A DNA stretch of 24,737 nucleotides from a virus: IMG/VR virus record IMGVR_UViG_3300021519_000071, positions 1 through 24,737 of that record; one strand, written 5' to 3'. Position numbers and translations under genes: made by a program. Below the pieces are notes generated by a model that saw nothing but the letters and a program-made list of their open reading frames with translations, made no database searches and had not been told where the DNA came from. Position 1 is the first letter of the stretch. The number at the start of each line of letters is the position of its first letter. Positions 4,379 to 16,343 of this stretch are shown here, piece after piece.

Positions 4379-4698
4379 TTTAATGCCCAATAAGTTTGAT
4401 CTTGCTCTTTAAGTCGAGCAATAATAATATATTTGTATCCATATGAGTACGGATCGGCTACACGATGCCAGAACGGAGCTTCCTCGGCATTCTCCATAAT
4501 CCATTTTCCAGCTTCTGACTGTTGCCAATTATACAATGGCTCGGCTGCGTACAAGTCAGGATCCTCAACATCGCCCATTGTAAACTCATGCACTTTCACA
4601 TCTGAAAACTTTACAACTTCGTTATTGACAAGTTTAAATTCTGGTTCTTTAAATAGCTTGGTAGCTTCTTCGGAACGATGCGGAGTAGTAATAGCCAT
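4363..4698 (-). CDS. Hypothetical protein with the array-type C-terminal motif (YWALKW)
   Basis: This 111-residue protein has no recognised domain. It ends in DQTYWALKWQKS, which matches the short C-terminal pattern shared by the small genes clustered at 8685-11786 (acidic stretch, then aromatic-x-L-K-W). The preceding strand YKYIIIARLKE also fits the beta strand and turn seen before the motif there. I therefore regard it as a dispersed, longer member of that family. It starts just after thyX and overlaps the epimerase. The bases before its ATG contain a sigma70-like promoter, so it may be transcribed separately from thyX. The function is unknown. Confidence 0.75.
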   Translation of the reverse strand: MAITTPHRSEEATKLFKEPEFKLVNNEVVKFSDVKVHEFTMGDVEDPDLYAAEPLYNWQQSEAGKWIMENAEEAPFWHRVADPYSYGYKYIIIARLKEQDQTYWALKWQKS

Positions 4699-4703
4699 AC
4701 CCC

Positions 4704-4732
4704 ATTATAACAGAATTACTGTTACTTTACAA
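4704..4732 (-). promoter_or_regulatory. Putative sigma70-type promoter upstream of the 111-aa gene
   Basis: On the minus strand TTGTAA (4732-4727) is followed after 17 bases by a perfect TATAAT (4709-4704). The -35 match is only 4 of 6. The -10 ends 5 bases before the ATG at 4698, so the transcript would be nearly leaderless. It overlaps the thyX stop codon. Confidence 0.4.
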
Positions 4733-5384
4733 GAAATTCGGTAACCATTGGAAATATAGTTTCAAGAGCCTGAGCACAGGCTAGGGCTACTTCTCTATGT
4801 TCCTTTTGGGTTTCCGGCCCACTACGCAATTCAATATAATGTAACCAGCTACGCAGCGTTCCTTGCATATACAATCGACTTACTGTAAGACCTTCGGGCA
4901 ATACGGCACGAGCTTGTTCTTTGGCTATGCCATGTTTGATTGCCCAATCATATGAGTCCTGGGCTACATCGGCGGCTCGTTGTTGTTTGAGGGCCCAACG
5001 CATGGCCAAATCATTATCAGTATTTTCTAAACTGTTTTGGCGATTCTTAGTATCTTGTAGTCTAGCTTCTTTAAGTTCTATACCTAAATCTGCTACGGCG
5101 TAACGCTGACTAAACTCTTGGAATGAAAAACTACGGTGTCGTAGTATCTGGCGAGCAATGTCGCGGGTCGTTTCAATTTCTAAACAGGCACTTACCATTT
5201 CAAGAGGACTCCAGTGGCGGTGCTTGATTAGATATCGAATTAGTTTTTCACTTGTTTCTGTGTTTGTTTGGTTAGCAGGATTGCTAACACGAGCACAGTA
5301 AGCAACTAGTTCTTGGGCATTTACAATACCTTGTGCAACTAGTTCCTTACTTGGCTCACTACTTGATACTAATGTTACCTTCAA
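4722..5384 (-). CDS. thyX: Flavin-dependent thymidylate synthase ThyX
   Basis: ThyX converts dUMP to dTMP using methylene-tetrahydrofolate, FAD and NADPH, and supplies thymidylate for phage DNA synthesis. The diagnostic ThyX motif RHRxxSxxxxSxR is present at residues 82-94 (RHRSFSFQEFSQR). The later LRSWLHYIELRSGPETQKEHR segment fits the substrate-binding helix, and the 220-residue length is typical. The start is a TTG at 5384, not an ATG. It overlaps the upstream stop as TTGA and has a ribosome site (TTAGGA) 5 bases before it, which lies in the last codons of the upstream gene. ThyX is common in phages with AT-rich genomes. Confidence 0.97.
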   Translation of the reverse strand: MKVTLVSSSEPSKELVAQGIVNAQELVAYCARVSNPANQTNTETSEKLIRYLIKHRHWSPLEMVSACLEIETTRDIARQILRHRSFSFQEFSQRYAVADLGIELKEARLQDTKNRQNSLENTDNDLAMRWALKQQRAADVAQDSYDWAIKHGIAKEQARAVLPEGLTVSRLYMQGTLRSWLHYIELRSGPETQKEHREVALACAQALETIFPMVTEFLVK

Positions 5385-5683
5385 AGTTTTCCTAACAACT
5401 TATCTGTTTCGGGTTGAACTAAAGCTGCAACACTTTTAATATCAACTACAAAATCAACATCGCGAATTTGACTGTCTAACTCAGAAAAGGTACGAGTAAC
5501 TAATGCTTCAATCTCTTCTAGTGCTAGTCCTTGTTTGAGTAATGTATGTAAGTTAATAGTACGTTGCTTGCCTTCTGTTAACTTAATTACGATCTTTTTA
5601 ATACACTCCAGTGGGACATCAGTTTTATTAACTTCTGAAATAATGAGTTCCCACTGATCTAACAAGTCATCAATTGGCTGCAT
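5381..5683 (-). CDS. Conserved-looking hypothetical protein (100 aa)
   Basis: I do not recognise a family. The 100-residue acidic, largely helical protein has no membrane segment, no cysteine pair and no nucleotide-binding motif. The repeated leucines and charged residues suggest a helical bundle or a protein-binding role. The ATG at 5683 overlaps the end of the upstream gene by 14 bases. A GTG directly before it at 5686 is an alternative start adding one residue. Its end carries the ribosome site for thyX, so the two are probably translated in a coupled way. Confidence 0.7.
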   Translation of the reverse strand: MQPIDDLLDQWELIISEVNKTDVPLECIKKIVIKLTEGKQRTINLHTLLKQGLALEEIEALVTRTFSELDSQIRDVDFVVDIKSVAALVQPETDKLLGKL

Positions 5684-6422
5684 CACTCACCGCAGCTTCC
5701 GCTTTAGGTGGACGACCTTTACGCTTTGGCGCTTCTGCTACAGGAGGAGTCCATGTAGCTTCGCCCATGTTCACGCCAGGAGTCATACGCTCTGCATCTT
5801 TCTTCATACGGCTAGCTTCGGCAATCATTTCAGTAGCTTCACGCTCCATTTGTTTAGCTTGAGCTAACATGTTAGCGGCAATTTGGCGATCACTTAATAC
5901 ACCATCTGTGCCAGCTTGCAAAGGTGTTGCTTCAGTATAACGACCTTCGGCAGCAGTTTGTTTAGCAAGTTGTTCAGCTTTGTATTCTGCCTCAGCGGCT
6001 CTCTTAACTGAAGGATCAACCATACCACGGCTAGCATCATTCTGTTGCATTTTTTTGCGGGCTTCTTCGCCTTTTTCCATTTCGTTGACTAACTTATTAA
6101 GTTCATCTAAACGAATAGTAGCATTGTTACCAGGAGTCATAATAACATCAGAGGTACGAATCTTTTTAATCATACGCTCGTTGTGTAATGTTTCTAAGAT
6201 TGGGCGGCCATCTGGAAACAATGAACGGTGCAATGCATCAGCTAATTGATTTGCGGCTTGTCCAATAGGACTTTCGACTACCTTTTGGATAGCATCTTGC
6301 CAAGCGGCATTAAGAATCTCAGGATAAATCACAAGGCACATATGGGTATCACCCGGAACCTCTCGATATAATACCAAGACCTTGCGGTCACCATTTTTAC
6401 CTACGTGTTTAATCTGTGCCAT
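5670..6422 (-). CDS. Conserved phage protein with C-terminal coiled coil (250 aa)
   Basis: The N-terminal half (about residues 1-120) looks like a compact globular domain beginning MAQIKHVGKNGDRKVLVLYRE. From about 118 to 220 the chain is rich in Glu, Lys, Ala, Gln and Met and is very likely a long alpha helix or coiled coil. The tail is basic and Pro-rich (APKRKGRPPKAEAA), resembling an AT-hook-like KRKGRPPK patch that could touch nucleic acid. No catalytic motif is visible. The ATG at 6422 is decided by a near-perfect ribosome site (AAGGAGGT) 5 bases upstream. The longer frame upstream overlaps the previous gene and has no such site. A structural or DNA-associated phage role is possible but unproven. 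Confidence 0.75.
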   Translation of the reverse strand: MAQIKHVGKNGDRKVLVLYREVPGDTHMCLVIYPEILNAAWQDAIQKVVESPIGQAANQLADALHRSLFPDGRPILETLHNERMIKKIRTSDVIMTPGNNATIRLDELNKLVNEMEKGEEARKKMQQNDASRGMVDPSVKRAAEAEYKAEQLAKQTAAEGRYTEATPLQAGTDGVLSDRQIAANMLAQAKQMEREATEMIAEASRMKKDAERMTPGVNMGEATWTPPVAEAPKRKGRPPKAEAAVSDAAN

Positions 6423-6423
6423 A

Positions 6424-6672
6424 TTAACCTCCTTGGGTTGTGTCGTCGGGTGTACTATCGACGCTAGCTGATTCAGATACTTCAGTTTCTCCATCGGCAG
6501 TAGCTTGAGCTTGCGCTACTACTGCGTTTAGAAAAGTTGTGAGCTTGTCAAAGACAGCACCAACTTGTGCCAATTCAGCACCGCGGAATGCACCGCGAGT
6601 TGCTGCAAGATCAACGATACTACGAAGAGCATCAAGATCCGCTACAGTGATTTGAGTTGTTTGATTTTCCAT
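6424..6672 (-). CDS. Small acidic phage protein (82 aa)
   Basis: This 82-residue protein has a helical N-terminal two thirds (LDALRSIVDLAATRGAFRG followed by ELAQVGAVFDKL) and a disordered acidic Ser/Thr/Asp tail. The helical part resembles small proteins I associate with T4-like phages of marine and freshwater bacteria, of unknown function. It ends one base before the strongly translated 250-aa gene, and its last codons contribute that gene's ribosome site. There is no clear ribosome site before its own ATG. Instead a late-type box lies 5 bases upstream. Confidence 0.75.
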   Translation of the reverse strand: MENQTTQITVADLDALRSIVDLAATRGAFRGAELAQVGAVFDKLTTFLNAVVAQAQATADGETEVSESASVDSTPDDTTQGG

Positions 6673-6677
6673 GTAGA

Positions 6678-6685
6678 TATTTAAT
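6678..6685 (-). promoter_or_regulatory. Putative T4-type late promoter box
   Basis: The minus strand reads ATTAAATA, which matches 6 of 8 bases of the T4 late consensus TATAAATA. It lies 5 bases before the ATG of the 82-aa gene. This is the same spacing as the stronger boxes at 17641, 19869 and 22387, which is the main reason to list it. Confidence 0.4.
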
Positions 6686-6709
6686 ATAATTTAACTCAAG
6701 CATAAAATA

Positions 6710-6734
6710 AAATACCCCCAATTTAGGGGTATTT
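6710..6734 (-). terminator. Rho-independent terminator
   Basis: AAATACCCC (6710-6718) pairs perfectly with GGGGTATTT (6726-6734) around a 7-base loop. On the minus strand the hairpin is followed by a T-rich run (TTTATTTTA). It lies just after the small membrane-protein gene and before the 82-aa gene, so it should end the transcript that begins at the promoter near 8671. Confidence 0.75.
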
Positions 6735-6752
6735 CGGTAAAACTGATACTGG

Positions 6753-6917
6753 TTATTTGTTAAAAGAGTAGTTAATATACGCTAGACCAAACGAAATTAT
6801 AGCACCAACATAGTTACCCACGGATAAATCTTGCAATCCAGCGTACACTAAAAATCCAATTAAGAACCAAGTAATTTCTTTTGCGTTACGCATATACCAC
6901 TGTTTAAATTTATTCAT
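6753..6917 (-). CDS. Small two-helix membrane protein (54 aa)
   Basis: The frame runs from ATG 6917 to TAA and encodes 54 residues. The N-terminus is short and basic (MNKFKQWYMRNAK). It is followed by a hydrophobic stretch around residues 14-26 (ITWFLIGFLVYAG) and a second around 35-49 (VGAIISFGLAYINY). This predicts a small inner-membrane hairpin protein. The ATG overlaps the stop of the zinc-ribbon gene by 8 bases (ATGAATAA), and a terminator follows 19 bases after the stop, so it is the last gene of that operon. The function is unknown. A holin-like or membrane-modifying role is possible, but no lysis partner is visible. Confidence 0.7.
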   Translation of the reverse strand: MNKFKQWYMRNAKEITWFLIGFLVYAGLQDLSVGNYVGAIISFGLAYINYSFNK

Positions 6918-7101
6918 CTTCTTCTCCATTAATATCCAAATCTTGACTGACCATATCTACCATACTACTATAACAGTTAGGACAAAATGCTACAGGTAAT
7001 ATACCAAAGTAACCTAGTACGCCACCTTCGTCTTCGGTAAACTCGCAGGCACATACATTACATTTGTGGTTGTCACCAACATGATTAAACCCATCAATCA
7101 T
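6910..7101 (-). CDS. Small zinc-ribbon-like protein (63 aa)
   Basis: Two CxxC knuckles are visible, CNVC at residues 14-17 and CPNC at 40-43, separated by about 22 residues. The tail is short and acidic (DLDINGEEDE). This is the layout of a zinc ribbon or treble-clef metal site, often used for nucleic-acid or protein binding. An extra Cys (CACEF) sits next to the first knuckle. The ATG overlaps the preceding stop as TAATG. The specific partner is unknown. Confidence 0.75.
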   Translation of the reverse strand: MIDGFNHVGDNHKCNVCACEFTEDEGGVLGYFGILPVAFCPNCYSSMVDMVSQDLDINGEEDE

Positions 7102-7331
7102 TATTTTTCTTTCTGATAGTGTCTTTTAATCTGTTCCACGGCATGCTTAACACTAGCATTGTATCCGTTTTCCCAATCTTGATAACCACCTAGTGGCTCG
7201 ACAATTTTCTGCCCTTTAACAATCTTACAAATATCTCTTGCAATCAACTCTACCAATAGATTAGCACGACCAGCAAGTTCTGGAGCTGCAAATCCTGCTT
7301 CTAGCATAAGTTTTTTGACTCGATCATTCAT
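7101..7331 (-). CDS. Small hypothetical phage protein (76 aa)
   Basis: This is a 76-residue, mainly helical, basic protein (MNDRVKKLMLEAGFAAPELAGRA at its N-terminus) with no membrane segment or known catalytic motif. Its ATG overlaps the VWA gene's stop as TAATG, and its own stop overlaps the next ATG in the same way, so it is part of a tightly coupled operon. I do not assign a function. Confidence 0.75.
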   Translation of the reverse strand: MNDRVKKLMLEAGFAAPELAGRANLLVELIARDICKIVKGQKIVEPLGGYQDWENGYNASVKHAVEQIKRHYQKEK

Positions 7332-8614
7332 TAGTGCGTACTTTCTTCCTCGTAGTAAGCATACTGTCCAAACGGTGGAACAATAGTCTTACTACCGTGG
7401 ATAATAAACACAGTATCGCAATATTGTTCATCTCCCCACGAACCATATGGATAACCGTCTGTGAACATGATATGGCGCTTGGGTTCAATTTCATTTTCTT
7501 TAAAGTATTGGAACACACAATCAAAGTCTGTGCCACCGCCACCTTTAATTTCGTAACCGGTGATATCGTCTAAGTTCTCCGAGTCGAACTGTTGTGGATT
7601 ATAAACCTGAGTATCAAACGATAGCACATGAATACGATAGTTAGGAAACTGTTCCATGATACCAGCTACTTCTGACAAGAAGTCTTTGAGCATTTGATCA
7701 CCCATTGATCCAGAAGCATCAATACTAACAGCCACATCGATCATTGGATCCAATTTCATGCCAGGCATAACTGCATCCATATGCCAACCTCGACGGCTGT
7801 TACGCATCCAAGTAAAATCTGATTTAATAGTAGATTCTAACTGCATACGCAACAATTCACGCCAGTCCATCTTAGGTGCAGTCATGTCTTGAATAAGACG
7901 CTTGACACCTGCAGGTAAATTGCCAGCACCATCTGATGCCGCGGCAGCCGCTAATACTGCTTCTTTAATTTCATCACGGATAGCGTCTTTTTCGGCTTTG
8001 GATAATTTAGGTCGCCCTTTTCCAGGCTGGTCCCCTTCACCACCGGCGTCGCCATCTTGATCGTCACCTTCTAAATGCTCGTCGAGCATTTTGTCAATCA
8101 AACTGCTGATATCAATTTTTTCAGCATTTTCATATAAAATGTCATAGACTTCCTCAGCACACATGCCATCGTATTTTGCATCGTATAAACAAGGTACGGT
8201 AGTAATAAACTCACCTACCCGATGTTTTTTCAAATCAGCATTTACGCAATAATCGTCGGCAATGTTCCAAAGTTGCGGATCTCTATCACCACGGCGCCCC
8301 ATATGGTCATATACGCAATGTAACACTTCGTGCCCAAACAAGAATTCAACTTCTTTTGGTTTAAGACTATCCACAAAACGAGAGTTGTAATAAAAGTTAC
8401 GCCCGTCTGTAGCGGCAGTAGGACACCATTCGTCGGCGTTCACTAACTTAAGACGGGTAGCCAAGTTACCAAAGAAGCTGGCACGGAGCAACAAACCCAC
8501 ACGAGCAGTGATCAGTTTTTCACGGATGTCACGATCCAATTTGGGGTCTGTGGGCCCTAGCAAGTCTTTGTACTTGTCTTTTTTACTTACTGTAGTTGTA
8601 GCAGCTGTGCTCAT
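7331..8614 (-). CDS. VWA-like metallopeptidase-domain protein (DUF2201 type), partner of MoxR ATPase
   Basis: This 427-residue protein has two recognisable domains. The N-terminal part carries a zinc-peptidase-like HEVLH (residues 95-99), followed by WNIADDYCVN, as in the DUF2201 N-terminal metallopeptidase family. The middle (about 180-235) is acidic and low-complexity, a likely linker. The C-terminal domain is von Willebrand A-like with an intact MIDAS: DxSxS at 299-303 (DASGS), Thr362 in GGGGTD and Asp386 in FTDG. Such proteins pair with MoxR AAA+ ATPases, which remodel target proteins, and a MoxR gene lies 4 kb upstream on the same strand. A strong sigma70-like promoter and a ribosome site (AAGGAT) precede the ATG. 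The target in infection is unknown. Confidence 0.88.
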   Translation of the reverse strand: MSTAATTTVSKKDKYKDLLGPTDPKLDRDIREKLITARVGLLLRASFFGNLATRLKLVNADEWCPTAATDGRNFYYNSRFVDSLKPKEVEFLFGHEVLHCVYDHMGRRGDRDPQLWNIADDYCVNADLKKHRVGEFITTVPCLYDAKYDGMCAEEVYDILYENAEKIDISSLIDKMLDEHLEGDDQDGDAGGEGDQPGKGRPKLSKAEKDAIRDEIKEAVLAAAAASDGAGNLPAGVKRLIQDMTAPKMDWRELLRMQLESTIKSDFTWMRNSRRGWHMDAVMPGMKLDPMIDVAVSIDASGSMGDQMLKDFLSEVAGIMEQFPNYRIHVLSFDTQVYNPQQFDSENLDDITGYEIKGGGGTDFDCVFQYFKENEIEPKRHIMFTDGYPYGSWGDEQYCDTVFIIHGSKTIVPPFGQYAYYEEESTH

Positions 8615-8642
8615 TACTATCCTTATTATTAACTATACTACT

Positions 8643-8671
8643 ATTATACTATAAACAGAATTAACGGTCAA
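8643..8671 (-). promoter_or_regulatory. Sigma70-type promoter for the VWA operon
   Basis: TTGACC (8671-8666) and a perfect TATAAT (8648-8643) are separated by 17 bases. The longer context, AGGTTGA before and TATAATAGTA at the -10, is repeated at 13946 and 16372. The predicted leader of about 22 bases contains the ribosome site of the VWA gene. Confidence 0.8.
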
Positions 8672-8684
8672 CCTGCTAAAACCT

Positions 8685-8981
8685 TTATATTTCGGTGTTG
8701 TTTATGTACTTTAAGCAAAACCAACTTAGTGTTGCTTCGTTATAAAAATCTAAATGCACTTCGGGCGAATAAAAATACCTGCCACTTAATACCTTATTTT
8801 CCTCACCATCGGCTGGTCTTAATCCTCGATGGTGTCTAACTGTAAATCCAAGTTCTCTCTTTAACCGCCAGGAAATTGTAAAAATGTTTATACCATAATC
8901 CTTTTTAATTTGATCGCGCACAGGTTCCCATTCATACGGTTCTTCGAATATAATTAAATTATGTTTAATTTTAATCTTCAA
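8685..8981 (-). CDS. Array protein M (98 aa), last of the small-gene array
   Basis: The C-terminal segment FYNEATLSWFCLKY matches the array signature (acidic or polar residues, then aromatic-x-L-K-aromatic). It is followed by a short extension. I chose a TTG start at 8981 because AAAGGA lies 7 bases before it and because it gives a 98-residue product within the array's size range. The longer frame would overlap the preceding gene by over 80 bases. The N-terminus then reads KIKIKHNLIIFEEPYEWEP, a strand-rich opening. It overlaps the preceding gene's end by 11 bases. The function is unknown. Confidence 0.6.
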   Translation of the reverse strand: MKIKIKHNLIIFEEPYEWEPVRDQIKKDYGINIFTISWRLKRELGFTVRHHRGLRPADGEENKVLSGRYFYSPEVHLDFYNEATLSWFCLKYINNTEI

Positions 8982-9189
8982 GCGGTAATCCTTTGACAGT
9001 ATTAATAGCACTTCTAGCATATTTACTAATTTTACCACCTTTATCCATGCGCTCAATATCTTCTAAAGCCGTCATCATGATTTCTGCTTCCTCGGCCATT
9101 TTGTAAACACGATTGCGTAAGTTGCCGGCATCTAACCAACTCGCAATAGTAGTAAACAATTTAGCAACAAGATAACTCCAATCAATCAT
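8971..9189 (-). CDS. Array-embedded small helical protein L (72 aa), lacks the array motif
   Basis: This 72-residue protein differs from its neighbours. It is mostly helical, with a moderately hydrophobic N-terminus (MIDWSYLVAKLFTTIASWL) that could be amphipathic and membrane-associated, then a charged helix. It lacks the aromatic-x-L-x-W ending. The ATG at 9189 overlaps the stop of gene K as ATGA. The ribosome site GAGGTGG lies 2 bases before the ATG's GC and is formed by K's conserved Leu-Arg-Trp codons. A GTG 6 bases upstream is less likely as start. The function is unknown. Confidence 0.7.
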   Translation of the reverse strand: MIDWSYLVAKLFTTIASWLDAGNLRNRVYKMAEEAEIMMTALEDIERMDKGGKISKYARSAINTVKGLPLED

Positions 9190-9407
9190 GCCCACCTCAA
9201 CAAGAATGCTACATAGTCTTGATTACGATAAAATATAAATTTTAATCTATCATAATAAGTTTCGTAACGCATACAAGTTTTATAATCTGGAAATTCTCGT
9301 TGGCACCATGCTAGGATTTCTTCCAAGTCAGCAAATGCCTTGGGGATATCGTGTTCCCACTTGCCCGACGGGTAATTACTGTTCCAATGTCCAGGTTTAA
9401 GACTCAT
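9186..9407 (-). CDS. Array protein K (73 aa)
   Basis: This is a 73-residue member of the small-gene array. The body is rich in aromatic and charged residues, including a helix around AFADLEEILAWCQREF. It ends FYRNQDYVAFLLRWA, a clear example of the shared C-terminal motif. The start ATG overlaps the previous stop as ATGA. Its LRW codons (TTG AGG TGG) double as the ribosome site for the next gene. No family or function is recognised. Confidence 0.75.
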   Translation of the reverse strand: MSLKPGHWNSNYPSGKWEHDIPKAFADLEEILAWCQREFPDYKTCMRYETYYDRLKFIFYRNQDYVAFLLRWA

Positions 9408-9640
9408 TTAGTCCACACCAATGAAAATGCTGTAGCTTCAGCAGGATTGCTAAAATAAAAATATCCATCTCGATATTGTACATCTTGTTTACAATGTTTT
9501 TCAGTCCACTCTACTTCTGGGCTACGATTTTCTCCAGCATATTCAAATCTAGCAGGACGATACTTAACTTTACCCCAGCCGCGGGTGCTAACTAGATTAT
9601 CCAGCATTGGTTGGCTATATTTAGGATTGAATCTTGTCAT
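9404..9640 (-). CDS. Array protein J (78 aa)
   Basis: This 78-residue protein ends YFYFSNPAEATAFSLVWTK. The alternating aromatic strand followed by a helix-forming PAEA and then F-x-L-V-W is the same pattern as in the neighbouring genes. The N-terminal two thirds are not alignable by eye with other members. The start overlaps the preceding stop as ATGA, and the stop overlaps the next ATG in the same way. The function is unknown. Confidence 0.75.
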   Translation of the reverse strand: MTRFNPKYSQPMLDNLVSTRGWGKVKYRPARFEYAGENRSPEVEWTEKHCKQDVQYRDGYFYFSNPAEATAFSLVWTK

Positions 9641-9885
9641 TTAAACTTTAACCTAAACAAGGTAGCATCCGCAGGATCAATAAAGTAAAATGCCGCGGCT
9701 TCGTCAAAATAGGCACTAACATCTGTAGTGTCGACCAACTCAGACCACACCAAACTTAAATTAGTTTCTCTGCAATATTTTTTCATAGCCCACATACGAA
9801 ATGCAGGATCGTTGACTACCACCAAATGACATTGGTCCAGTGTTTCTTCTGGCGGTCTAGGAAGGGTCCAGTTGTTTACATGCAT
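9637..9885 (-). CDS. Array protein I (82 aa)
   Basis: This 82-residue protein ends AFYFIDPADATLFRLKFK, very similar in layout to gene J's ending (FYFSNPAEATAFSLVW). That suggests I and J are sister duplicates whose bodies have diverged. The ATG overlaps the stop of gene H as TAATG. There is no clear ribosome site, so re-initiation is likely. The function is unknown. Confidence 0.75.
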   Translation of the reverse strand: MHVNNWTLPRPPEETLDQCHLVVVNDPAFRMWAMKKYCRETNLSLVWSELVDTTDVSAYFDEAAAFYFIDPADATLFRLKFK

Positions 9886-10160
9886 TATCTATTAAATTTT
9901 AAAACAAACATTATATATTTCTTTTCATTTATAACATCGTATGATAAGGTAACATTATCGCCGTCAAATTGTAGTTTAATTCCATAGTATTCGCGTACAT
10001 AATCGTCAAAGGTTAAAAATCCTTGCCCAACAGGAACAGCATCAGCAAGTGCATCATATTCATTTTTAACTCTTTGTAATCGTAGGAAATGTTGGGTATC
10101 GCCGCCTATGATAGTATCTAGCCGAGCCGCAGTATTAGCATAGTATTCGTCCTTACTCAC
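9885..10160 (-). CDS. Array protein H (91 aa)
   Basis: This 91-residue protein ends YDVINEKKYIMFVLKFNR, which fits the shared motif with Phe replacing Trp. The first half is helical and the second half strand-rich. There is no ATG in a sensible place. GTG at 10160 (or the GTG just before it at 10163) overlaps the end of gene G, and the Gly/Trp-coding run TGGTGGGGTGG upstream may act as a ribosome site. The start is uncertain by one codon. The function is unknown. Confidence 0.65.
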   Translation of the reverse strand: MSKDEYYANTAARLDTIIGGDTQHFLRLQRVKNEYDALADAVPVGQGFLTFDDYVREYYGIKLQFDGDNVTLSYDVINEKKYIMFVLKFNR

Positions 10161-10437
10161 CACCCCACCACTTAATTGTCTTTGATTTTAGTTTGACTAT
10201 AGTAAACTCATGCGGGTCTACTTGCCCACGCATACCATACCAATCGGGTTTGACTTGATACACTCCATTGGTATTTTCTAACCACACACGACTACTGCGG
10301 GCAACAAACTCGTCATGTGTTTTAAAACACATCTTACCATTGTCCGCAGGGCTACAGTTATACATGCACCAATAGCGCCATGCATCGCCAAATACAGTTA
10401 CATCATACTTAGGATCTATCTCGTAGTAATAATTCAT
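10153..10437 (-). CDS. Array protein G (94 aa), atypical C-terminus
   Basis: This 94-residue protein is rich in Tyr and Trp. Its C-terminus reads EFTIVKLKSKTIKWWGGE. The final strand resembles the array motif (F-x-x-x-K-L-K), but the spacing to the Trp pair is altered, so it is either a degenerate or an extended member. ATG 10437 overlaps the upstream stop as ATGA, like most junctions here. An ATG 6 bases upstream (10443) is an alternative start. The function is unknown. Confidence 0.65.
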   Translation of the reverse strand: MNYYYEIDPKYDVTVFGDAWRYWCMYNCSPADNGKMCFKTHDEFVARSSRVWLENTNGVYQVKPDWYGMRGQVDPHEFTIVKLKSKTIKWWGGE

Positions 10438-10703
10438 GTCCATACCAAAGTAAACATTATAGCATCTTTTTCATTTTCAAACAACCACACCAAGCCCATA
10501 GTTTTATACTCACCAATGCACTTGTGGTCAACCCAGAGATCAATCTCAGCAGACCGTTCGGTTGTCATTGGTGTTAATATTACTTTGGTCCATCCTGATC
10601 TACATAGTTCATCGGTTAAGGTATTAAAGTTAATCTCCGCCCAAACTCGATCGTTGTCTTCTTTCCAATACTTGTGTTGGTGGTTGTATTCTTCTAAGTT
10701 CAT
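10434..10703 (-). CDS. Array protein F (89 aa)
   Basis: This 89-residue acidic protein ends LVWLFENEKDAIMFTLVWT. The motif is textbook for the array: aromatic strand, F-E-N-E-K-D-A helix start, then M-F-T-L-V-W. Its ATG overlaps the previous stop as ATGA. The body contains a strand-turn-strand region (KVILTPMTTERSAEIDLWVD). No known domain is recognised. Confidence 0.75.
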   Translation of the reverse strand: MNLEEYNHQHKYWKEDNDRVWAEINFNTLTDELCRSGWTKVILTPMTTERSAEIDLWVDHKCIGEYKTMGLVWLFENEKDAIMFTLVWT

Positions 10704-10906
10704 TTAGCCCATTTTAACTGAAAATATGTTGCCCACTGCTTGTCCTTAAAATTAAACTCCACTGTAGCCGGAGTTATTACATCATCGCCTAACCATGTAT
10801 TTACTGCCGGAGTGAATCTCCAGGTATAATCAAGATCGCGACACAGGCCTTGATCCGTAATTTGATCGTTGTATAAGAATGCCTCGTGAGCTGTTTTAAC
10901 AACCAT
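10700..10906 (-). CDS. Array protein E (68 aa)
   Basis: This protein ends VEFNFKDKQWATYFQLKWAK, matching the shared motif. ATG 10906 is preferred because a G-rich stretch (GGGG) lies 5-6 bases upstream and it begins 2 bases after the stop of gene D. An in-frame ATG at 10918 lies inside D's Lys-Trp codons and would add four residues. The resulting 68-residue size is typical for the array. The function is unknown. Confidence 0.68.
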   Translation of the reverse strand: MVVKTAHEAFLYNDQITDQGLCRDLDYTWRFTPAVNTWLGDDVITPATVEFNFKDKQWATYFQLKWAK

Positions 10907-10908
10907 CT

Positions 10909-11136
10909 TTAACCCCATTTTAACATAAACCAAGTATAATCTTCATCGCGGTCAAAAATATAATATACCGTATCAAGAGCTCCTCGCGGACTGCTAGTAT
11001 CAACTCTATACTTAAATACTTCACGACAACGCTGTCCGTATTGCCTTGGTGTTTCCAAATGTTCAACAGGTAAGGTACGCTTGGCATTCCAGAATGCACG
11101 ATTAAATCTATCATCTAGAACATTAACTCTGATCAT
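10909..11136 (-). CDS. Array protein D (75 aa)
   Basis: This 75-residue protein has a basic, Arg-rich first half (DDRFNRAFWNAKRTL) and ends YYIFDRDEDYTWFMLKWG, a clear instance of the shared motif. ATG 11136 overlaps the preceding stop as ATGA. The ribosome site AAGGTGG before it is made by the previous gene's Leu-Arg-Trp codons. The function is unknown. Confidence 0.75.
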   Translation of the reverse strand: MIRVNVLDDRFNRAFWNAKRTLPVEHLETPRQYGQRCREVFKYRVDTSSPRGALDTVYYIFDRDEDYTWFMLKWG

Positions 11137-11324
11137 GCCCACCTTAACATAAACATAGTACGATCAGTCTCATCTACAAACTCAAATACACCCTCGCCAA
11201 TATACCACCAGCCGTCTACAATCTGTTCTTCACACCACTCTATACACGGCTTCCATCCACCATACCCTGGTCGAATATTAGGTGCTTGCACACTAGTTGC
11301 ATAACGATTGTGTATTTCGTTCAC
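11133..11324 (-). CDS. Array protein C (63 aa), GTG start
   Basis: This is the shortest member at 63 residues, ending VFEFVDETDRTMFMLRWA. There is no suitable ATG. GTG 11324 overlaps the stop of gene B as GTGA and has GAGG 5 bases upstream within B's LLRW codons. The longer GTG at 11330 would lie inside that ribosome site and is less likely. The Trp-rich centre (EEQIVDGWWYIG) resembles strands of other members. The function is unknown. Confidence 0.7.
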   Translation of the reverse strand: MNEIHNRYATSVQAPNIRPGYGGWKPCIEWCEEQIVDGWWYIGEGVFEFVDETDRTMFMLRWA

Positions 11325-11536
11325 GACCACCTCAACAAAAATCCTATACGCTGGGTATCGTTATCAAATGATAATGCCATGCCTTGTTGATGCTCGATAC
11401 CTCTGGGCAAATTATCAGCCATCCAATTAAGGATTTCGCGCTCATTATCGGCCCACCATGTATAATCCTCAATCATTAATAGGTAACTGCCACTTCCTGG
11501 ACTACTTGCTAGTTGAAAACGCTTAACTGCTTTCAT
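11321..11536 (-). CDS. Array protein B (71 aa)
   Basis: This 71-residue protein ends ALSFDNDTQRIGFLLRWS, fitting the shared motif. A central Trp-rich helix (DYTWWADNEREILNWMADNL) resembles the EEILAWCQREF helix of gene K, so the similarity may extend beyond the C-terminus. The ATG overlaps the end of gene A by 14 bases. Its final codons form the ribosome site of gene C. The function is unknown. Confidence 0.75.
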   Translation of the reverse strand: MKAVKRFQLASSPGSGSYLLMIEDYTWWADNEREILNWMADNLPRGIEHQQGMALSFDNDTQRIGFLLRWS

Positions 11537-11786
11537 ATTGTTTTTCGCCGTATTTTAGTTTAAACCAACTTAGTTCTTCGTCGCCTCGAACATAGATTAC
11601 ATAAGTTTGGTAAACCATATGAAATGACCAATACTCATTGTCGACTAAATCGTTTGCTATGGTACTAGCATATCCGTATGTACTACTAAACCAATTTCTT
11701 GCATGATGAAAATTCAGCATACCCTGTATCTGGATACCGTGTTTAAAATATCTATTATCTCTAGTTTGGTGTATACTATAGTTCAT
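11523..11786 (-). CDS. Array protein A (87 aa), first of the small-gene array
   Basis: This 87-residue protein carries the motif slightly before its end, YVIYVRGDEELSWFKLKYG, followed by an eight-residue tail (EKQYESS region). It overlaps the FkbM methyltransferase gene by 11 bases, so the array is probably translated from the same transcript. The centre is rich in His, Tyr and Phe. No known family is recognised. Confidence 0.72.
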   Translation of the reverse strand: MNYSIHQTRDNRYFKHGIQIQGMLNFHHARNWFSSTYGYASTIANDLVDNEYWSFHMVYQTYVIYVRGDEELSWFKLKYGEKQYESS

Positions 11787-12537
11787 CTAATGCAATCGTT
11801 GGGACGCCATCTAGTTCATAGTCACTTTCCGTAGGACAAAAGATCCAATTTTCAGAATTGTACTCATACGCAATATAATTTAGGTTGCAAAATATTTCTT
11901 TAATTAATTTTGTATTTGTTTTAAACATTTCTACAAAACAAATAGGTCTATGGTTACTGATTGTTTGCATAGCACCAATTAAGGCATAATACTCCATTCC
12001 TTCGATATCCAACTTGATAAAGTCTACTACCTCATTATAACTATCTATAGTTACAGTTTTAACATATTCCAAGTTAGGTTTGACCATATTTTGGTTATCA
12101 CTATGTTCAGCCGGCATTAATTCAACACCACCAAAGTTATTAAATGAATTATAATCAGGCAATTGAATAGGCACAATATTATTAAGTACATCGCTTACTG
12201 CAACATACTCGCAGTTGACATTATCAAGCCCATTAATAGCAACATTGCCACACAGCATATAATACACTTGTCGTTGCGCTTCAAATGCTCGAACGCTAAT
12301 ACGATCTCCAAACTGCTTGGCTAGGGCCACGGCATGGGTTCCAATATTGGCTCCAACATCATACAGGACCATCTTGGGTTTGATTTCGAGTATTAGCTCG
12401 CAAAAGCTAGCAATCAACTCAATATCGTCTTTGGCCCACGCACCAAACTGGATGACAGATTGTCCTATATATTGATCGTTTTGATTAACAATCATAGGAC
12501 CGTATATAGAATCGGCAATGGTATTAGGTATAGTCAT
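11776..12537 (-). CDS. FkbM-family SAM-dependent methyltransferase
   Basis: This 253-residue protein has the SAM-binding motif YDVGANIGTHAVALA at residues 59-73, an acidic residue after the second strand (FEAQ near 85-88), and the FkbM hallmark DFIKLDIEGMEYYALIG at 172-188. Members of this family O-methylate sugars and other small groups, often in glycan or natural-product pathways, so it may modify a phage or host glycan. ATG 12537 is chosen because upstream in-frame sequence runs into the intergenic hairpin. No ribosome site is seen before it, so expression may depend on read-through and low-level initiation. It lies between a long hairpin and the small-gene array. Confidence 0.88.
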   Translation of the reverse strand: MTIPNTIADSIYGPMIVNQNDQYIGQSVIQFGAWAKDDIELIASFCELILEIKPKMVLYDVGANIGTHAVALAKQFGDRISVRAFEAQRQVYYMLCGNVAINGLDNVNCEYVAVSDVLNNIVPIQLPDYNSFNNFGGVELMPAEHSDNQNMVKPNLEYVKTVTIDSYNEVVDFIKLDIEGMEYYALIGAMQTISNHRPICFVEMFKTNTKLIKEIFCNLNYIAYEYNSENWIFCPTESDYELDGVPTIALDEL

Positions 12538-12552
12538 ATTATATAAAAGGGT

Positions 12553-12600
12553 GGAGGGCGGTGCGAACACAGCCCTGTGTAAACAACTACACCGTCCTCC
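12553..12600 (-). terminator. Two-tier hairpin, probable terminator after the MoxR gene
   Basis: GGAGGGCGGTG (12553-12563) pairs with CACCGTCCTCC (12590-12600) over 11 positions with one G-T wobble. A second stem, ACACA/TGTGT (12567-12571 with 12576-12580), closes a GCCC loop inside it. On the minus strand it is followed by ACCC and TTTTATATAAT. It lies 9 bases past the MoxR stop, which fits a terminator. The weak T-run and the inner stem leave room for a regulatory leader of the downstream methyltransferase. Confidence 0.6.
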
Positions 12601-12609
12601 GTAAGCCTA

Positions 12610-13695
12610 TTAAGCTGATGCTGATAAAATATACTTTCCGTATTTCTTATGGAACTCATCAAAGTTTTTCAACTTGGTTGGCTGGAATGGCAAGTTATAC
12701 ACTGTAAGAGCAATACGAGCACCCATGACCACTAACTCAGTTTCAAAGTTCTTCATCATGTAAGCAAAGAAATAATCAGCCATTGTGTGGAACTCTTTGT
12801 CTGATGTTTTCTTTTCAACCGCATCTTTAAGTTCGTAGCACATACTAATAACCAACGAGTACATTGCTGATACTTCTTTAACCTGTAAATCAGTTACTTT
12901 ACCAGACAAAATATCTTCTGGCTTAGGCATTTTACCCGAAACCTTGCGGTGAGCGCCAAACTTAATAGCAAGTCCTTCACCAATAGTACCCGAAATCAAA
13001 TTAGTGATAGTGTCGTCATCGCCGTCATCGTCTGACAATATTTCGCTTACAAATGACCATGAGCGTGGTGTAGCAAATGCTCGCGAGCTAGACTTAGGGT
13101 CAAAGTCGTACAAGTCTTGTTTATTAGAGCCAAGGTAACCAATGATATCTTTATGGATATTATGAGTTACAGCCCAGTCCTGCCATGACGCAAAGTCAGT
13201 TTTCATTTCTTGGTGAATGAAACGATTCGCTAATGGAGTAGGCATACGATATGTAACGCCTTTGTCTGACTCGCGATTACCGGCAGCAACCATTACTACA
13301 TTTTTTGGCAATTTATATTTGCCAATAGCTCGATTCAAGATTAATTGATATGATGCGGCTTGAACTGACGGAGCCGCACTATTAAGTTCGTCCATAAATA
13401 AAACTATAATAGGATACTGGCCAGCTAATTCTTCGGTAGGCAAATCAATAGGTTCGGCCCAATCCATCTTGCCAATTTCTTTATTGTAAAAAGGAATACC
13501 ACGAATGTCTGTGGGCTCCATTTGACCCAAACGAAGGTCAATCATATAACCACCAAGTTCGGCAGTGATATCTGCTACCAATTCTGACTTACCAATACCA
13601 GGAGGGCCCCAGAGGAATAGTGGGCGTTGATGTTTAAATGCTTTCAGTAAACTCTTACGAGCTTGTACCGAAGTGACTTGTCTTGTTTCTGACAT
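12610..13695 (-). CDS. MoxR-family AAA+ ATPase
   Basis: This 361-residue AAA+ protein has Walker A GPPGIGKS at residues 30-37, Walker B VLFMDE at 98-103, sensor 1 Asn140 in AAGNRESD, and an arginine in ANRF near 158. Together these match the MoxR branch. MoxR ATPases act with VWA-domain partners as chaperone-like machines that activate or disassemble protein complexes in the cytoplasm. The VWA/metallopeptidase gene on the same strand is the evident partner. A ribosome site AAGGAA lies about 8 bases before the ATG. It follows a 68-residue gene that has a sigma70-like promoter. The target is not known. Confidence 0.9.
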   Translation of the reverse strand: MSETRQVTSVQARKSLLKAFKHQRPLFLWGPPGIGKSELVADITAELGGYMIDLRLGQMEPTDIRGIPFYNKEIGKMDWAEPIDLPTEELAGQYPIIVLFMDELNSAAPSVQAASYQLILNRAIGKYKLPKNVVMVAAGNRESDKGVTYRMPTPLANRFIHQEMKTDFASWQDWAVTHNIHKDIIGYLGSNKQDLYDFDPKSSSRAFATPRSWSFVSEILSDDDGDDDTITNLISGTIGEGLAIKFGAHRKVSGKMPKPEDILSGKVTDLQVKEVSAMYSLVISMCYELKDAVEKKTSDKEFHTMADYFFAYMMKNFETELVVMGARIALTVYNLPFQPTKLKNFDEFHKKYGKYILSASA

Positions 13696-13732
13696 GGGCT
13701 ATGTTCCTTAAAGTTTTGATTAATGTTAACTA

Positions 13733-13939
13733 CTAAACTACATTGTACATTTTAATGATTTTATCGTCAACCTTTGCAGTTTCATCCATAAACACCGTTA
13801 GAGCCCGTTGTTCGCGAGCAGATAGTAGTTTATAGTGTTTGACCATAGATTCAACTGCTGACAAACTATCAAGTCCGTTGGCCAAAGCAAAATTCTCTAT
13901 AGAGTCGCATGCTTCTGCAAGGGTCAATTTTTTAATCAT
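13733..13939 (-). CDS. Small hypothetical protein upstream of MoxR (68 aa)
   Basis: This is a 68-residue, all-helical-looking soluble protein with no Cys and no known motif. It is the first gene after a strong promoter whose -10 ends 6 bases before the ATG, so the mRNA would be nearly leaderless. No ribosome site is present, and no internal Met near the N-terminus offers a later start. It is separated by 37 bases from the MoxR gene and is likely co-transcribed. I do not recognise a function. Confidence 0.65.
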   Translation of the reverse strand: MIKKLTLAEACDSIENFALANGLDSLSAVESMVKHYKLLSAREQRALTVFMDETAKVDDKIIKMYNVV

Positions 13940-13945
13940 AATACT

Positions 13946-13974
13946 ATTATATTACAATGCAATTTATTAGTCAA
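13946..13974 (-). promoter_or_regulatory. Sigma70-type promoter for the MoxR operon
   Basis: TTGACT (13974-13969) and a perfect TATAAT (13951-13946) are separated by 17 bases. The flanking context (CAGGTTGA and TATAATAGTA) matches the promoter of the VWA operon almost exactly, so MoxR and VWA are probably expressed at the same time. Confidence 0.8.
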
Positions 13975-13989
13975 CCTGAAAAACTACCT

Positions 13990-13997
13990 ACTAAATA
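13990..13997 (+). promoter_or_regulatory. Putative T4-type late promoter box
   Basis: ACTAAATA matches 6 of 8 bases of TATAAATA and lies 5 bases before the ATG of the plus-strand oxygenase gene. It is weak alone, but it has the same position as the perfect boxes further along. Confidence 0.45.
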
Positions 13998-14002
13998 CGG
14001 GC

Positions 14003-14590
14003 ATGTACACTATAATTGAGGACTGTAGTCCGTTCTATATAAGATTTAAATGGGAAGGAATTGAAGAACTCATTAATTTTATAGCAACTCAGCCCACCTA
14101 TCTAAATGCAGGGAATAAAAGAACAGGATATGTACACTATAACTTTGATTTGGCTACTGCAAATCAAATACTTGACCAGTTGCCATTGCCAATTAAAATT
14201 AATAATAATCGAGTAGGATTGTTTATTACACCGCCCGGTGGCAAATCTTCCATTCATAAAGATGGAAAATCAACCCGCTATAGCATCAATATTACTATAA
14301 AAATACCAGACGATAAATGTATTACTAATTGGTATAGTGATGAATCTTTAAAAGATTTTAAAAAAGAAAATGATGATTATAGTCGCATAGTAGTTAATCA
14401 TAACATAAAACCAACTCCTATAAAAACAATGTCTGCGGTTGCAAACGAATGCATTTTATTCAATACCGATATCTATCATTCATGGGACAACACTAATTCA
14501 GCTAACCAGCGTATAGTGTTAACCATGCGTGATATCGATGTTGAAACAGTTTCCTATGATGAAGCCAAACAAATATTATTTGACAAATAA
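14003..14590 (+). CDS. 2OG-Fe(II) oxygenase-like protein 1
   Basis: This 195-residue protein has the metal triad of the double-stranded beta-helix oxygenases: His85-x-Asp87 in IHKDG and a distal His159 in FNTDIYHSW. Arg170 (NQRIVLTMR), 11 residues later, sits where 2-oxoglutarate is usually held. Family members use Fe(II), O2 and 2-oxoglutarate to hydroxylate proteins, nucleic acids or small molecules. The C-terminus (VSYDEAKQILF) resembles the W-D-x-A tail of several cluster members. It is transcribed alone on the plus strand and ends directly against the convergent 54-aa gene. A weak late box lies before the ATG, and there is no ribosome site. The substrate is unknown. Confidence 0.7.
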   Translation: MYTIIEDCSPFYIRFKWEGIEELINFIATQPTYLNAGNKRTGYVHYNFDLATANQILDQLPLPIKINNNRVGLFITPPGGKSSIHKDGKSTRYSINITIKIPDDKCITNWYSDESLKDFKKENDDYSRIVVNHNIKPTPIKTMSAVANECILFNTDIYHSWDNTNSANQRIVLTMRDIDVETVSYDEAKQILFDK

Positions 14591-14755
14591 TTAACGACCG
14601 CGGCCTGCACTACGAGTTGGCGGTTTTTTAGCAGGACCAGCAGAAGGTTTTACTTTAACTTTTTTTTCAACTGTGGTGGCATCACTACCATCCACATGAG
14701 TGCGACCTTGTTTTTTTGCTAGTGCTCGTGCTAGTGTATCTGAAAGTTTACTCAT
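14591..14755 (-). CDS. Small basic Ala/Lys/Pro-rich protein (54 aa)
   Basis: The frame from ATG 14755 encodes 54 residues with a ribosome site (AAGGAT) 5 bases upstream. The N-terminal helix (SKLSDTLARALAKKQG) is followed by a low-complexity basic tail rich in Lys, Pro, Ala, Gly and Arg (PAKKPPTRSAGRGR). The high positive charge suggests nucleic-acid binding. Its stop abuts the stop of the convergent oxygenase gene. No family is recognised. Confidence 0.65.
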   Translation of the reverse strand: MSKLSDTLARALAKKQGRTHVDGSDATTVEKKVKVKPSAGPAKKPPTRSAGRGR

Positions 14756-14772
14756 TATTAATCCTTAAAATT

Positions 14773-14848
14773 TGGTGCCCCCGCCATGATTCGAACACGG
14801 GACATCAGCATTACAAATGCTGCGCTCTACCGACTGAGCTACAAGGGC
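14773..14848 (-). tRNA. tRNA-Thr (anticodon TGT), CCA encoded
   Basis: This is a 76-base cloverleaf. The acceptor GCCCTTG pairs with CGGGGGC using two G-T pairs. The D arm is TAGCTCAGTCGGTAGAGC, the anticodon stem CAGCA/TGCTG encloses loop TTTGTAA, and the T arm CCGTG/CATGG encloses TTCGAAT. Discriminator A and CCA are encoded. It reads ACA, a common codon in AT-rich phages. Confidence 0.95.
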
Positions 14849-14857
14849 CCTACTACT

Positions 14858-15088
14858 TTATTCTACCACCGACTCCACCACTTCTACTATAACTACTTCT
14901 TCGACGAAACCTGGACGACTTTTTAATTCTGCAATTCTACGATGAATTTTAGCAACATTCTTTTTACGAGCACCTGCTGCTAATTTTTCTAATTGTGTAA
15001 TGTTTAATGGGCCCAAGCGTTCTTTACCGTTTTTGGTACGCATTGGATCTGCTTTACGAGTTTTTTGATTTCCACCTTTGGTTGCCAT
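14858..15088 (-). CDS. Small basic phage protein (76 aa)
   Basis: This 76-residue protein has a strongly basic N-terminal two thirds (MATKGGNQKTRKADPMRTKNGKER start, then a Lys/Arg-rich helix AARKKNVAKIHRRIAELKSR) and a hydrophobic-acidic tail (EEVVIVEVVESVVE). This suggests RNA or DNA binding with a self-associating or partner-binding end. The ribosome site AAAGGA lies about 7 bases before the ATG. It sits between an oxygenase gene and tRNA-Thr. The function is unknown. Confidence 0.75.
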   Translation of the reverse strand: MATKGGNQKTRKADPMRTKNGKERLGPLNITQLEKLAAGARKKNVAKIHRRIAELKSRPGFVEEVVIVEVVESVVE

Positions 15089-15110
15089 GTTTATTCCTTT
15101 ATTATTTTAC

Positions 15111-15668
15111 TTATTTTACATATCCGAGTACTGATAATTTTTCAACAGCTTGTTCGTAAGTTATATAAGTCCCAAATAGCATTGATACTGTAATCCTATG
15201 TATATCATTATTATTCACTACTCTGTGCGGTATTGTAGTATTAACTAAACATCCGTGTCCAAGGTTAGTTTCTTCATAAGCATCGTTGGGTGTACTAATT
15301 ATAGAACCATAAGCTAGAGTAGCGTGTTTTGGTTCTGGCGGAGGCAAATTTAATTTAGAATTCCATTGTATTATACCGGTGCCATCTAATACCCAATTAA
15401 TTGCAAAATTTGTTCTAGCAATAACTGTTCCATCAACATGCCAAGGAAAAAATCCATTTGGGTGCCATCTAAAAATTCTAATTAATTCAGGAAATAAGTT
15501 TTGCGAGGCTAAGTTTGTTTGGATTTTAGTGGGCCAAAAATTTGTTTTTAATGTGTGCAATTGCCATCTCGGAATAGTATCACAAACATCTGTTGGATCA
15601 TTCAACCATACAGATTTATAATCTATATTTGGCGTAGGTAAAGTAGTTTGAGTATAAAATTTGTTCAT
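15111..15668 (-). CDS. 2OG-Fe(II) oxygenase-like protein 2 (LPxP/W-x-x-A subgroup)
   Basis: This 185-residue protein has His77-x-Asp79 in PWHVDG, distal His148 in TTIPHRVVN, and Arg158 ten residues later (HRITVSM), the expected Fe(II)/2-oxoglutarate set. The N-terminus TTLPTPNID and C-terminus ITYEQAVEKL are shared with oxygenase-like proteins 7, 9 and 13, which marks a subgroup in this cluster. A late-type box lies 4 bases before the ATG, next to the 3' end of tRNA-Ser. No ribosome site is seen. A hydroxylase on a protein or glycan is likely, but the substrate is unknown. Confidence 0.75.
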   Translation of the reverse strand: MNKFYTQTTLPTPNIDYKSVWLNDPTDVCDTIPRWQLHTLKTNFWPTKIQTNLASQNLFPELIRIFRWHPNGFFPWHVDGTVIARTNFAINWVLDGTGIIQWNSKLNLPPPEPKHATLAYGSIISTPNDAYEETNLGHGCLVNTTIPHRVVNNNDIHRITVSMLFGTYITYEQAVEKLSVLGYVK

Positions 15669-15672
15669 CTTA

Positions 15673-15680
15673 TATTTACT
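15673..15680 (-). promoter_or_regulatory. Putative T4-type late promoter box
   Basis: The minus strand reads AGTAAATA (6 of 8 to TATAAATA), 4 bases before the ATG of the oxygenase gene and 3 bases past the 3' end of tRNA-Ser. The shared spacing is the main support. Confidence 0.42.
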
Positions 15681-15683
15681 GCT

Positions 15684-15773
15684 TGGCGGAAGCGGTGAGA
15701 TTCGAACTCACGATACAGTTGCCCGTATGTCTGCTTAGTAGGCAGATGCCTTCGGCCACTCGGCCACGCTTCC
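15684..15773 (-). tRNA. tRNA-Ser (anticodon ACT), CCA encoded
   Basis: This is a 90-base class II tRNA. The acceptor GGAAGCG/CGCTTCC is perfect. The anticodon stem TCTGC/GCAGA encloses loop CTACTAA. The variable arm has an ATAC/GTAT stem, the T arm GTGAG/CTCAC is perfect, discriminator G and CCA are encoded. The long arm and discriminator G indicate serine. The usual loop for this isoacceptor is CTGCTAA (anticodon GCT). Here position 34 is A, giving ACT, which is unusual in bacteria and phages. Confidence 0.9.
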
Positions 15774-15782
15774 TATAAAACT

Positions 15783-15858
15783 TGGCTCCCCAACCAGGAC
15801 TTGAACCTGGGACCAACAGATTAACAGTCTGCTGCTCTACCGACTGAGCTATCGGGGA
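15783..15858 (-). tRNA. tRNA-Asn (anticodon GTT), CCA encoded
   Basis: This is a 76-base cloverleaf with acceptor TCCCCGA/TTGGGGA, D arm TAGCTCAGTCGGTAGAGC, anticodon stem GCAGA/TCTGT around loop CTGTTAA, T arm CCAGG/CCTGG around TTCAAGT, discriminator G and encoded CCA. It lies 9 bases from tRNA-Ser and 10 bases after the omega-like gene, so all three probably share a transcript. Confidence 0.95.
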
Positions 15859-15868
15859 ATATAACTAA

Positions 15869-16156: not shown

Positions 16157-16172
16157 ACTACCTCCTGGTAAA

Positions 16173-16343
16173 TTATTTTGCTAAAATTTGTGCTTGGCGA
16201 AATGCTTTAAGAACGGCATAGGTGCGCTGTTTTGCACTGGCCATCTGTCTTGAGGCTTCTGCTCGTTTTTCAGTTTTACTCCATTGGCCAGCTAGGGTAC
16301 GGCTTAGTTCTGATGCTGATTGTTGTTGTGGTTTCTTTGCCAT
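16173..16343 (-). CDS. Small basic helical protein upstream of the omega-like gene (56 aa)
   Basis: The frame from ATG 16343 encodes 56 residues with ribosome site AAAGGA about 7 bases upstream. The product is Ala/Lys/Gln/Arg-rich and predicted fully helical (SELSRTLAGQWSKTEKRAEA and onward), with a basic charge. The N-terminal region SASELSRTLA resembles SKLSDTLARALAKK of the 54-aa gene at 14591, so the two may be related. It is the first gene of the omega/tRNA transcript. The function is unknown. Confidence 0.65.
   Translation of the reverse strand: MAKKPQQQSASELSRTLAGQWSKTEKRAEASRQMASAKQRTYAVLKAFRQAQILAK

Follow-up and report, generated by a model that had tools for sequence, protein, structure and literature searches.

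A 24.7-kb virus contig (IMG/VR record IMGVR_UViG_3300021519_000071, positions 1 to 24,737; we refer to this whole stretch as the window) raises two questions: what use a phage has for such a number of variants of a single 60-residue scaffold, and whether the MoxR–VWA–peptidase encoded beside them is its partner. From 8685 to 11786, its minus strand carries 13 open reading frames (ORFs) that abut or overlap one another, in most cases by a few bases, all with start codons that give 63–98 codons. The original prediction, made from the DNA letters and their translations, held that 11 of these 13 tiny overlapping genes end in F-x-L-[KRV]-[WFY], and named one exception as degenerate (G) and one as lacking the motif (L). 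We found that the array is one local cluster of a large family that grows by tandem duplication and is kept by purifying selection. Its genes are listed below with the profile–profile support for each, for which the reference consisted of members from distant phages (Sinorhizobium phage Phosso and 0.4–0.6-Mb records) and a few sequences of one window-clade phage.

11523–11786, minus strand: g01, array gene, 87 amino acids (aa), ending in ...WFKLKYGEKQYESS; profile–profile 77%.
11321–11536, minus strand: g02, array gene, 71 aa, ending in ...FLLRWS; 95%.
11133–11324, minus strand: g03, array gene, 63 aa, ending in ...FMLRWA; 98%; GTG start at 11324 overlapping the stop of g02; modelled with AlphaFold2.
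10909–11136, minus strand: g04, array gene, 75 aa, ending in ...FMLKWG; 88%; exchanged between phages.
10700–10918, minus strand: g05, array gene, about 72 aa, ending in ...FQLKWAK; 85%.
10434–10703, minus strand: g06, array gene, 89 aa, ending in ...FTLVWT; 98%.
10153–10443, minus strand: g07, motif absent (the 'degenerate' gene), 94–96 aa; 1.9%.
9885–10163, minus strand: g08, array gene, 91–92 aa, ending in ...FVLKFNR; 55%.
9637–9885, minus strand: g09, array gene, 82 aa, ending in ...FRLKFK; 97%.
9404–9640, minus strand: g10, array gene, 78 aa, ending in ...FSLVWTK; 95%.
9186–9407, minus strand: g11, array gene, 73 aa, ending in ...FLLRWA; 95%.
8971–9195, minus strand: g12, helix-rich, motif absent, 72–74 aa; 0.3%.
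8685–8981, minus strand: g13, array gene, 98 aa, TTG start at 8981, ending in ...WFCLKYINNTEI; 0.5%.

The pattern [FWY]xL[KRV][WFY] fell inside the last 13 residues of 11 of the 13 proteins. Shuffling the 13 proteins left an expected 0.02 with the motif among their last 9 residues and 0.33 with it at any position. Leave-one-out profiles, built from the last 20 motif residues and scored against 2000 shuffles each, recovered all 11 motif genes with E-values of 3e-10 to 0.015 (for 13 sequences); the real score was matched by no shuffle for nine of them, by one for g05 and by five for g01. Two genes were not recovered: for g07, 725 of 2000 shuffles scored as well, and g12 gave no match. They are exactly the two exceptions named beforehand. 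A hidden Markov model (HMM) of the last 20 residues was run on 26,994 ORFs from related loci and gave 248 matches at E ≤ 1, compared with a single one in the shuffled control; almost all of these 248 lay at the extreme C-terminus. Shuffling, the HMM controls and the leave-one-out profiles thus rule out composition as the source of the motif, and the claim of a shared C-terminal end better than chance holds.

We also considered whether the codons of the motif (LRW = TTG AGG TGG) might serve as a ribosome-binding site for the overlapping gene that follows. A Shine–Dalgarno-like word overlapped the motif codons at only 9 of 149 downstream starts and the last genes of arrays retain the motif; this role is therefore ruled out as the main cause and is at most a secondary effect. 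The motif arginine codon in LRW was AGG in 44 of 79 cases, compared with about 9% elsewhere in the same genes, a bias for which a Shine–Dalgarno word serving the following gene accounts in small part only.

The two genes without the motif are not decayed members of the family, because both have well-conserved orthologues. For g07, 24 orthologue matches reached identities of up to 83%, and its membership of the family is not supported; g12 has conserved orthologues at the corresponding place in relatives, and its membership fails every test. In g13 the tail matches by leave-one-out and the whole-domain profile does not, so that the tail alone ties this gene to the family; its orthologue group is widespread, with 39 matches in related loci.

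The motif proved to be the end of a C-terminal domain of about 55–70 residues, preceded by variable N-terminal parts. Alignments of this domain run from an upstream helix, given as [DE]W[CL]xxN or [DE]W[CL]xxxxG, through FxF and an acidic turn to AxxFxL[KR]W. An acidic residue is present in the turn of 93–100% of members; the conserved positions are aromatic or aliphatic apart from the acidic turn, with no conserved basic patch beyond one K/R. Profile–profile comparison placed g02, g03, g06, g09, g10 and g11 in the family at 95–98%, with 38–53 columns in common that include the upstream helix. The prediction that the genes share only a C-terminal motif was thus right about the tail and wrong about 'only'. 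Support was weaker for g01, g04 and g05 (77–88%) and for g08 (55%), and lay below 2% for g07, g12 and g13; control genes reached at most 0.35%.

To picture the fold we used an AlphaFold2 model of g03 (59 sequences; predicted local distance difference test score 85.8, predicted template-modelling score 0.71). Its predicted order is strand 8–11, helix 25–34, strand 39–43, strand 46–49 and helix 52–62, that is, β–α–β–β–α. FxF forms the last strand of the model, and the F-x-L-R-W tail lies inside the C-terminal helix. This contradicts the proposal of a terminal strand and, since the motif sits in a helix, assembly of subunits through a shared C-terminal strand is not supported. The suggested ferredoxin-like fold is roughly supported for the one member modelled: five of the six elements are present in the model, with the final strand missing. 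A structure search of the PDB with this model returned nothing significant (best E-value 0.76, mostly Cas2 chains, template-modelling (TM) scores mostly 0.34–0.46); the likeness to the Cas2 group of ferredoxin-like proteins lies in the order of elements and in the identity of the top matches. By contrast, many uncharacterised phage proteins in the predicted viral protein library BFVD matched the model (best E-value 4.8e-4, probability 1.00, TM score 0.79). Among them, proteins of uncultured Caudovirales (such as A0A6J7WFP6) and A0A2L0UZW8 of Agrobacterium phage Atu_ph07 resemble g03 in predicted fold and size and are probably family members, although they are unnamed and have not been recognised as such.

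The divergence of the gene bodies had been read as the mark of repeated duplication under fast diversifying selection. The first half of this reading was borne out. The closest pairs within a 44-gene array of a relative (L288) are up to 62% identical. The second half was not. The window genes have their own orthologues in other phages, often 60–93% identical, and the ratio of non-synonymous to synonymous substitution (dN/dS, by NG86) between orthologues was 0.04–0.22, similar to that of the flanking genes; these values are approximate, as dS often exceeds 1 and is saturating. The orthologues are under purifying selection, and we reject diversifying selection, which would give ratios near or above 1; the bodies look so different because the paralogues are old. 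Together, the identities within arrays and the orthologue ratios indicate that the array grows by tandem duplication and is then maintained, not rapidly diversified. We also found that g04 and its copy in another locus (L089) are 94% identical in DNA with a dS of 0.20, whereas the ATPase genes of the same two phages are 80% identical with a dS of 1.98; cassettes therefore move between phages, in keeping with array contents that differ among close relatives.

How far the family extends was examined with a broad profile, which at E ≤ 1 gave 56 matches in Phosso (469 kb), 5 in Atu_ph07 and 4 in Pseudomonas phage PA5oct. Five control phages gave no match: Bacillus phage G, Escherichia phage 121Q, Salicola phage SCTP-2, Vibrio phage 2.275.O and cyanophage S-TIM5. 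Protein searches of isolated phages with the window members gave nothing significant; the link to Phosso began as a weak match (E-value 0.8) and was then confirmed with profiles. As a sample independent of the ATPase and VWA genes, we searched IMG/VR DNA for DAMLFKLRW, DAVLFxLRW and DAMMFKLxW. Among the matches listed, the 13 tested records of at least 200 kb held 5–84 family matches each, including 62–73 in four records of 436–608 kb (E ≤ 0.1) and 84 in one of 417 kb (E ≤ 0.01). In most giant-phage records found in this way the members are dispersed; the largest tandem array seen is that of L288, a 154-kb contig with 44 copies in 14.4 kb (2257–16679, IMGVR_UViG_3300025723_000017). The first of these patterns, in its exact nine-residue form, matched 12 phage contigs. 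Bacterial and archaeal contigs, 257 Gb in all, yielded one match, which lies inside a regulator gene that is unrelated, and we reject a bacterial origin by this search.

As the original prediction had supposed, the family appears to be undescribed. Searches of Pfam, PHROGs, NCBIfam and PADLOC with the family gave nothing convincing above a curated or clearly significant score, the only similarity to defence-related models consisted of weak single matches, and we found no description in open PMC articles. By the pattern searches the family is phage-only, and it has no name in the libraries tried. With 56 matches against 735 annotated features in Phosso, and 84 in the 417-kb contig, it accounts for a considerable part of the 'dark matter' of giant phages. 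The family offers a single handle on many hypothetical genes, and Phosso, which grows on Sinorhizobium meliloti, is an isolated phage available for experiments.

The genes and promoter-like sequences that flank the array bear on when and with what its products might act.

13974–13946: stronger sigma-70-like match upstream of the ATPase gene.
13770–13742: promoter-like TTGACG-17-TACAAT (sigma-70-like) upstream of the ATPase gene, conserved in relatives.
12610–13695, minus strand: MoxR-like AAA+ ATPase (phrog_1297; PF00004), the upstream flank of the array.
11776–12570, minus strand: FkbM-type methyltransferase, a variable insert between the ATPase gene and the array.
8643–8671, minus strand: promoter-like TTGACC-17-TATAAT in the gap that follows g13, upstream of the VWA gene.
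7331–8614, minus strand: putative metallopeptidase (PF13203, HEVLH) fused to a VWA-like domain (PF09967, DxSxS MIDAS), phrog_1314, the downstream flank.

We collected 160 IMG/VR loci that carry genes related to the ATPase and VWA genes, giving 116 distinct ATPase–VWA intervals; related phages are not independent samples. A promoter-like sequence preceded the ATPase gene in 106 of 116 relatives, against 4 when the sequence was shuffled, and the VWA gene in 106 of 117 distinct relatives, against 8. With conserved promoter-like sequences before both genes, the array is probably transcribed together with the ATPase gene, and the VWA gene probably has a separate transcript. The methyltransferase occupies the site between ATPase and array in few relatives only, so the interval also admits unrelated genes.

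The explanation that we favour, to which we would give about an even chance, is that the family supplies a repertoire of early small proteins built on one scaffold, each kept for a separate partner in host takeover or competition. The array is, in this reading, an accordion-like cluster on a small β–α–β–β–α domain, in which copies arise by tandem duplication, diverge and come under purifying selection. Related phages acquire, drop and exchange such copies as cassettes. In the window clade the array would probably be transcribed early, from a host-type promoter ahead of the MoxR ATPase gene. Each paralogue would most likely bind its own partner, a host or rival-phage factor, and block or redirect it, and the whole set would serve takeover or counter-defence; a role in host interaction or anti-defence, as first proposed, is plausible. 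What we show is the family with its C-terminal domain, one predicted fold, the copy numbers, growth in tandem, purifying selection, the exchange of cassettes and the conserved promoter-like sequences; early timing, the binding of partners and the takeover or counter-defence role we infer. The isoelectric points of members spread widely (5–95% range 4.5–9.6, median 6.0; not uniformly basic) and their tryptophan content is high (4.7% versus 2.1%), as for protein-binding surfaces. We also count for this explanation that four PA5oct members (gp202, gp209, gp210 and gp237) are not marked as detected by electrospray ionization tandem mass spectrometry, where many neighbours are. Several points weigh on the other side. 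Library searches found no known inhibitor or anti-defence protein among relatives of the family. An arms race would more typically leave diversification than the strong purifying selection seen between orthologues. The early timing comes from promoter-like sequences only, and little can be concluded when small proteins are missing from a virion proteome.

In other viruses, the multigene families of African swine fever virus and the ankyrin/F-box proteins of poxviruses also form tandem arrays of paralogues that grow and contract, the latter with a conserved C-terminal docking module and a variable N-terminal part. The present family resembles both in the growth and shrinkage of its arrays and resembles the poxvirus proteins also in its C-terminal module and variable N-terminal part. 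It belongs to phages, whereas they are families of eukaryotic viruses, and we claim no sequence relation.

By analogy with the poxvirus adaptors, the members might instead serve the ATPase and metallopeptidase–VWA proteins, the C-terminal domain docking on the VWA MIDAS through its acidic turn and the variable body bringing a target for remodelling or cutting. We regard this, the main rival reading, as possible but rather unlikely. The flanking genes are a MoxR AAA+/VWA pair like RavA–ViaA, NorQ–NorD and the MoxR–vWA–metallopeptidase pair described in jumbo phages, for which a role in virion assembly was proposed (Iyer et al. 2021, PMC7824862); in the available text of the papers found, no small-gene family of this kind is a component of such systems. 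In the window clade the association is strong: the two genes lie between 15 bp and 6.4 kb apart, intervals with more members being longer (r = 0.80, 116 intervals), 50 of the 116 intervals contain 1–12 members, and 85 have one inside or within 1.5 kb after the VWA gene. Member density there is 1.13 per kb between the two genes against 0.034 per kb elsewhere in the loci, a 34-fold difference, and one relative (L118) has about two dozen members. All 13 tested records of at least 200 kb found by peptide pattern alone carry a VWA gene, among the matches listed, and in Phosso and several 277–608-kb records one member lies just downstream of it. At VWA MIDAS sites, partner proteins are bound through acidic residues (NorD, PMC9976466), which suits the near-universal acidic turn, and the VWA protein here has a predicted metallopeptidase domain. 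However, the five control phages in which the broad profile found no member, from phage G to S-TIM5, have the ATPase–VWA pair without the family. A member lies near the pair in 10 of 16 pattern-found records, compared with 5.1 expected from density alone; linkage is thus strong in the window clade and weak in giant phages. The VWA gene has its own conserved promoter-like sequence, and co-occurrence may be plain phylogeny. We think it unlikely that the idea extends to modular targeting, with tens of interchangeable adaptors, every one of which would bring its own host or rival-phage protein to the MoxR ATPase–VWA–metallopeptidase for remodelling or destruction; if it did, this would be a phage counterpart of the F-box adaptor arrays of eukaryotic viruses.

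An improbable alternative to a repertoire of partner-binding proteins is that the members are nucleic-acid-binding regulators or DNA-organising proteins. Large expansions have a precedent in jumbo phages, the zinc ribbon of Bacillus phage G with about 35 copies (PMC7824862), which like the present family is a tiny domain that has multiplied within a particular lineage of giant phages, and the model weakly resembles Cas2-type ferredoxin folds. In contrast to the zinc ribbon, the present family has no conserved zinc ligands, reaches about 84 copies, forms tandem overlapping arrays and occurs in many phages, phage G itself having none. Nucleic-acid binding is less likely because members range from acidic to basic; the single conserved K/R and the non-significant PDB matches (E ≥ 0.76) also speak against it.

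Highly improbable, in our view, is a role as virion or inner-body components, or as clients of the MoxR–VWA pair in virion assembly. Besides the assembly role proposed for that pair, the virion reading can draw on Phosso gp170 (L168 8924–9304, minus strand; record positions 113923–114303), which joins a family member to part of the C-terminal region of a major capsid protein of the Gp23 type (PF07068, 25.8 bits against a cut-off of 24.4). This short stretch is 43–50% identical to capsid-like genes of Phosso and other phages, and gp170 is a possible decoy or assembly interferer. A virion role is made less likely by the missing mass-spectrometry marks on the four PA5oct members, and copy numbers varying from 2 to 84 are unlike those of structural genes. 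That the family is a duplication-prone cassette with little or no function, kept by linkage or selfish spread, would fit the wide variation in copy number and gene content among relatives but is scarcely credible, being largely refuted by purifying selection, open frames and orthologue groups conserved across many phages.

Around these main subjects we made several further observations. In PA5oct (NC_071039.1), a 'polyubiquitin-like' gene at 184808–185068 (L290) directly precedes gp202; the surrounding region has many ClpS, ClpX and FtsH-like genes as well. The window has one doubtful outlying relative of the family, about 4 kb from the array:

4363–4698, minus strand: 111-aa protein after thyX, ending in ...YWALKWQKS.

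This protein has 85 matches in related loci, a profile–profile value of 35% and 53 of 2000 shuffles as good. From 15111 to 23660, on both strands, the window carries about ten neighbouring look-alike proteins of 174–211 aa with H-x-D motifs (for example 'IHIDDGP...RLLWPVKNCQGSYTKF' at 19319–19864, with a near copy at 21016–21561); they had no match in Pfam and are perhaps a second, dioxygenase-like paralogue cluster. At the start of the window, tandem genes at 1–264 and 261–1472 (minus strand) have closely similar N-termini (ILEANQTGADISWDFH and VLEAQKTLADISWNFH), both with SGGADSTN, and look like duplicated PP-loop type enzymes.

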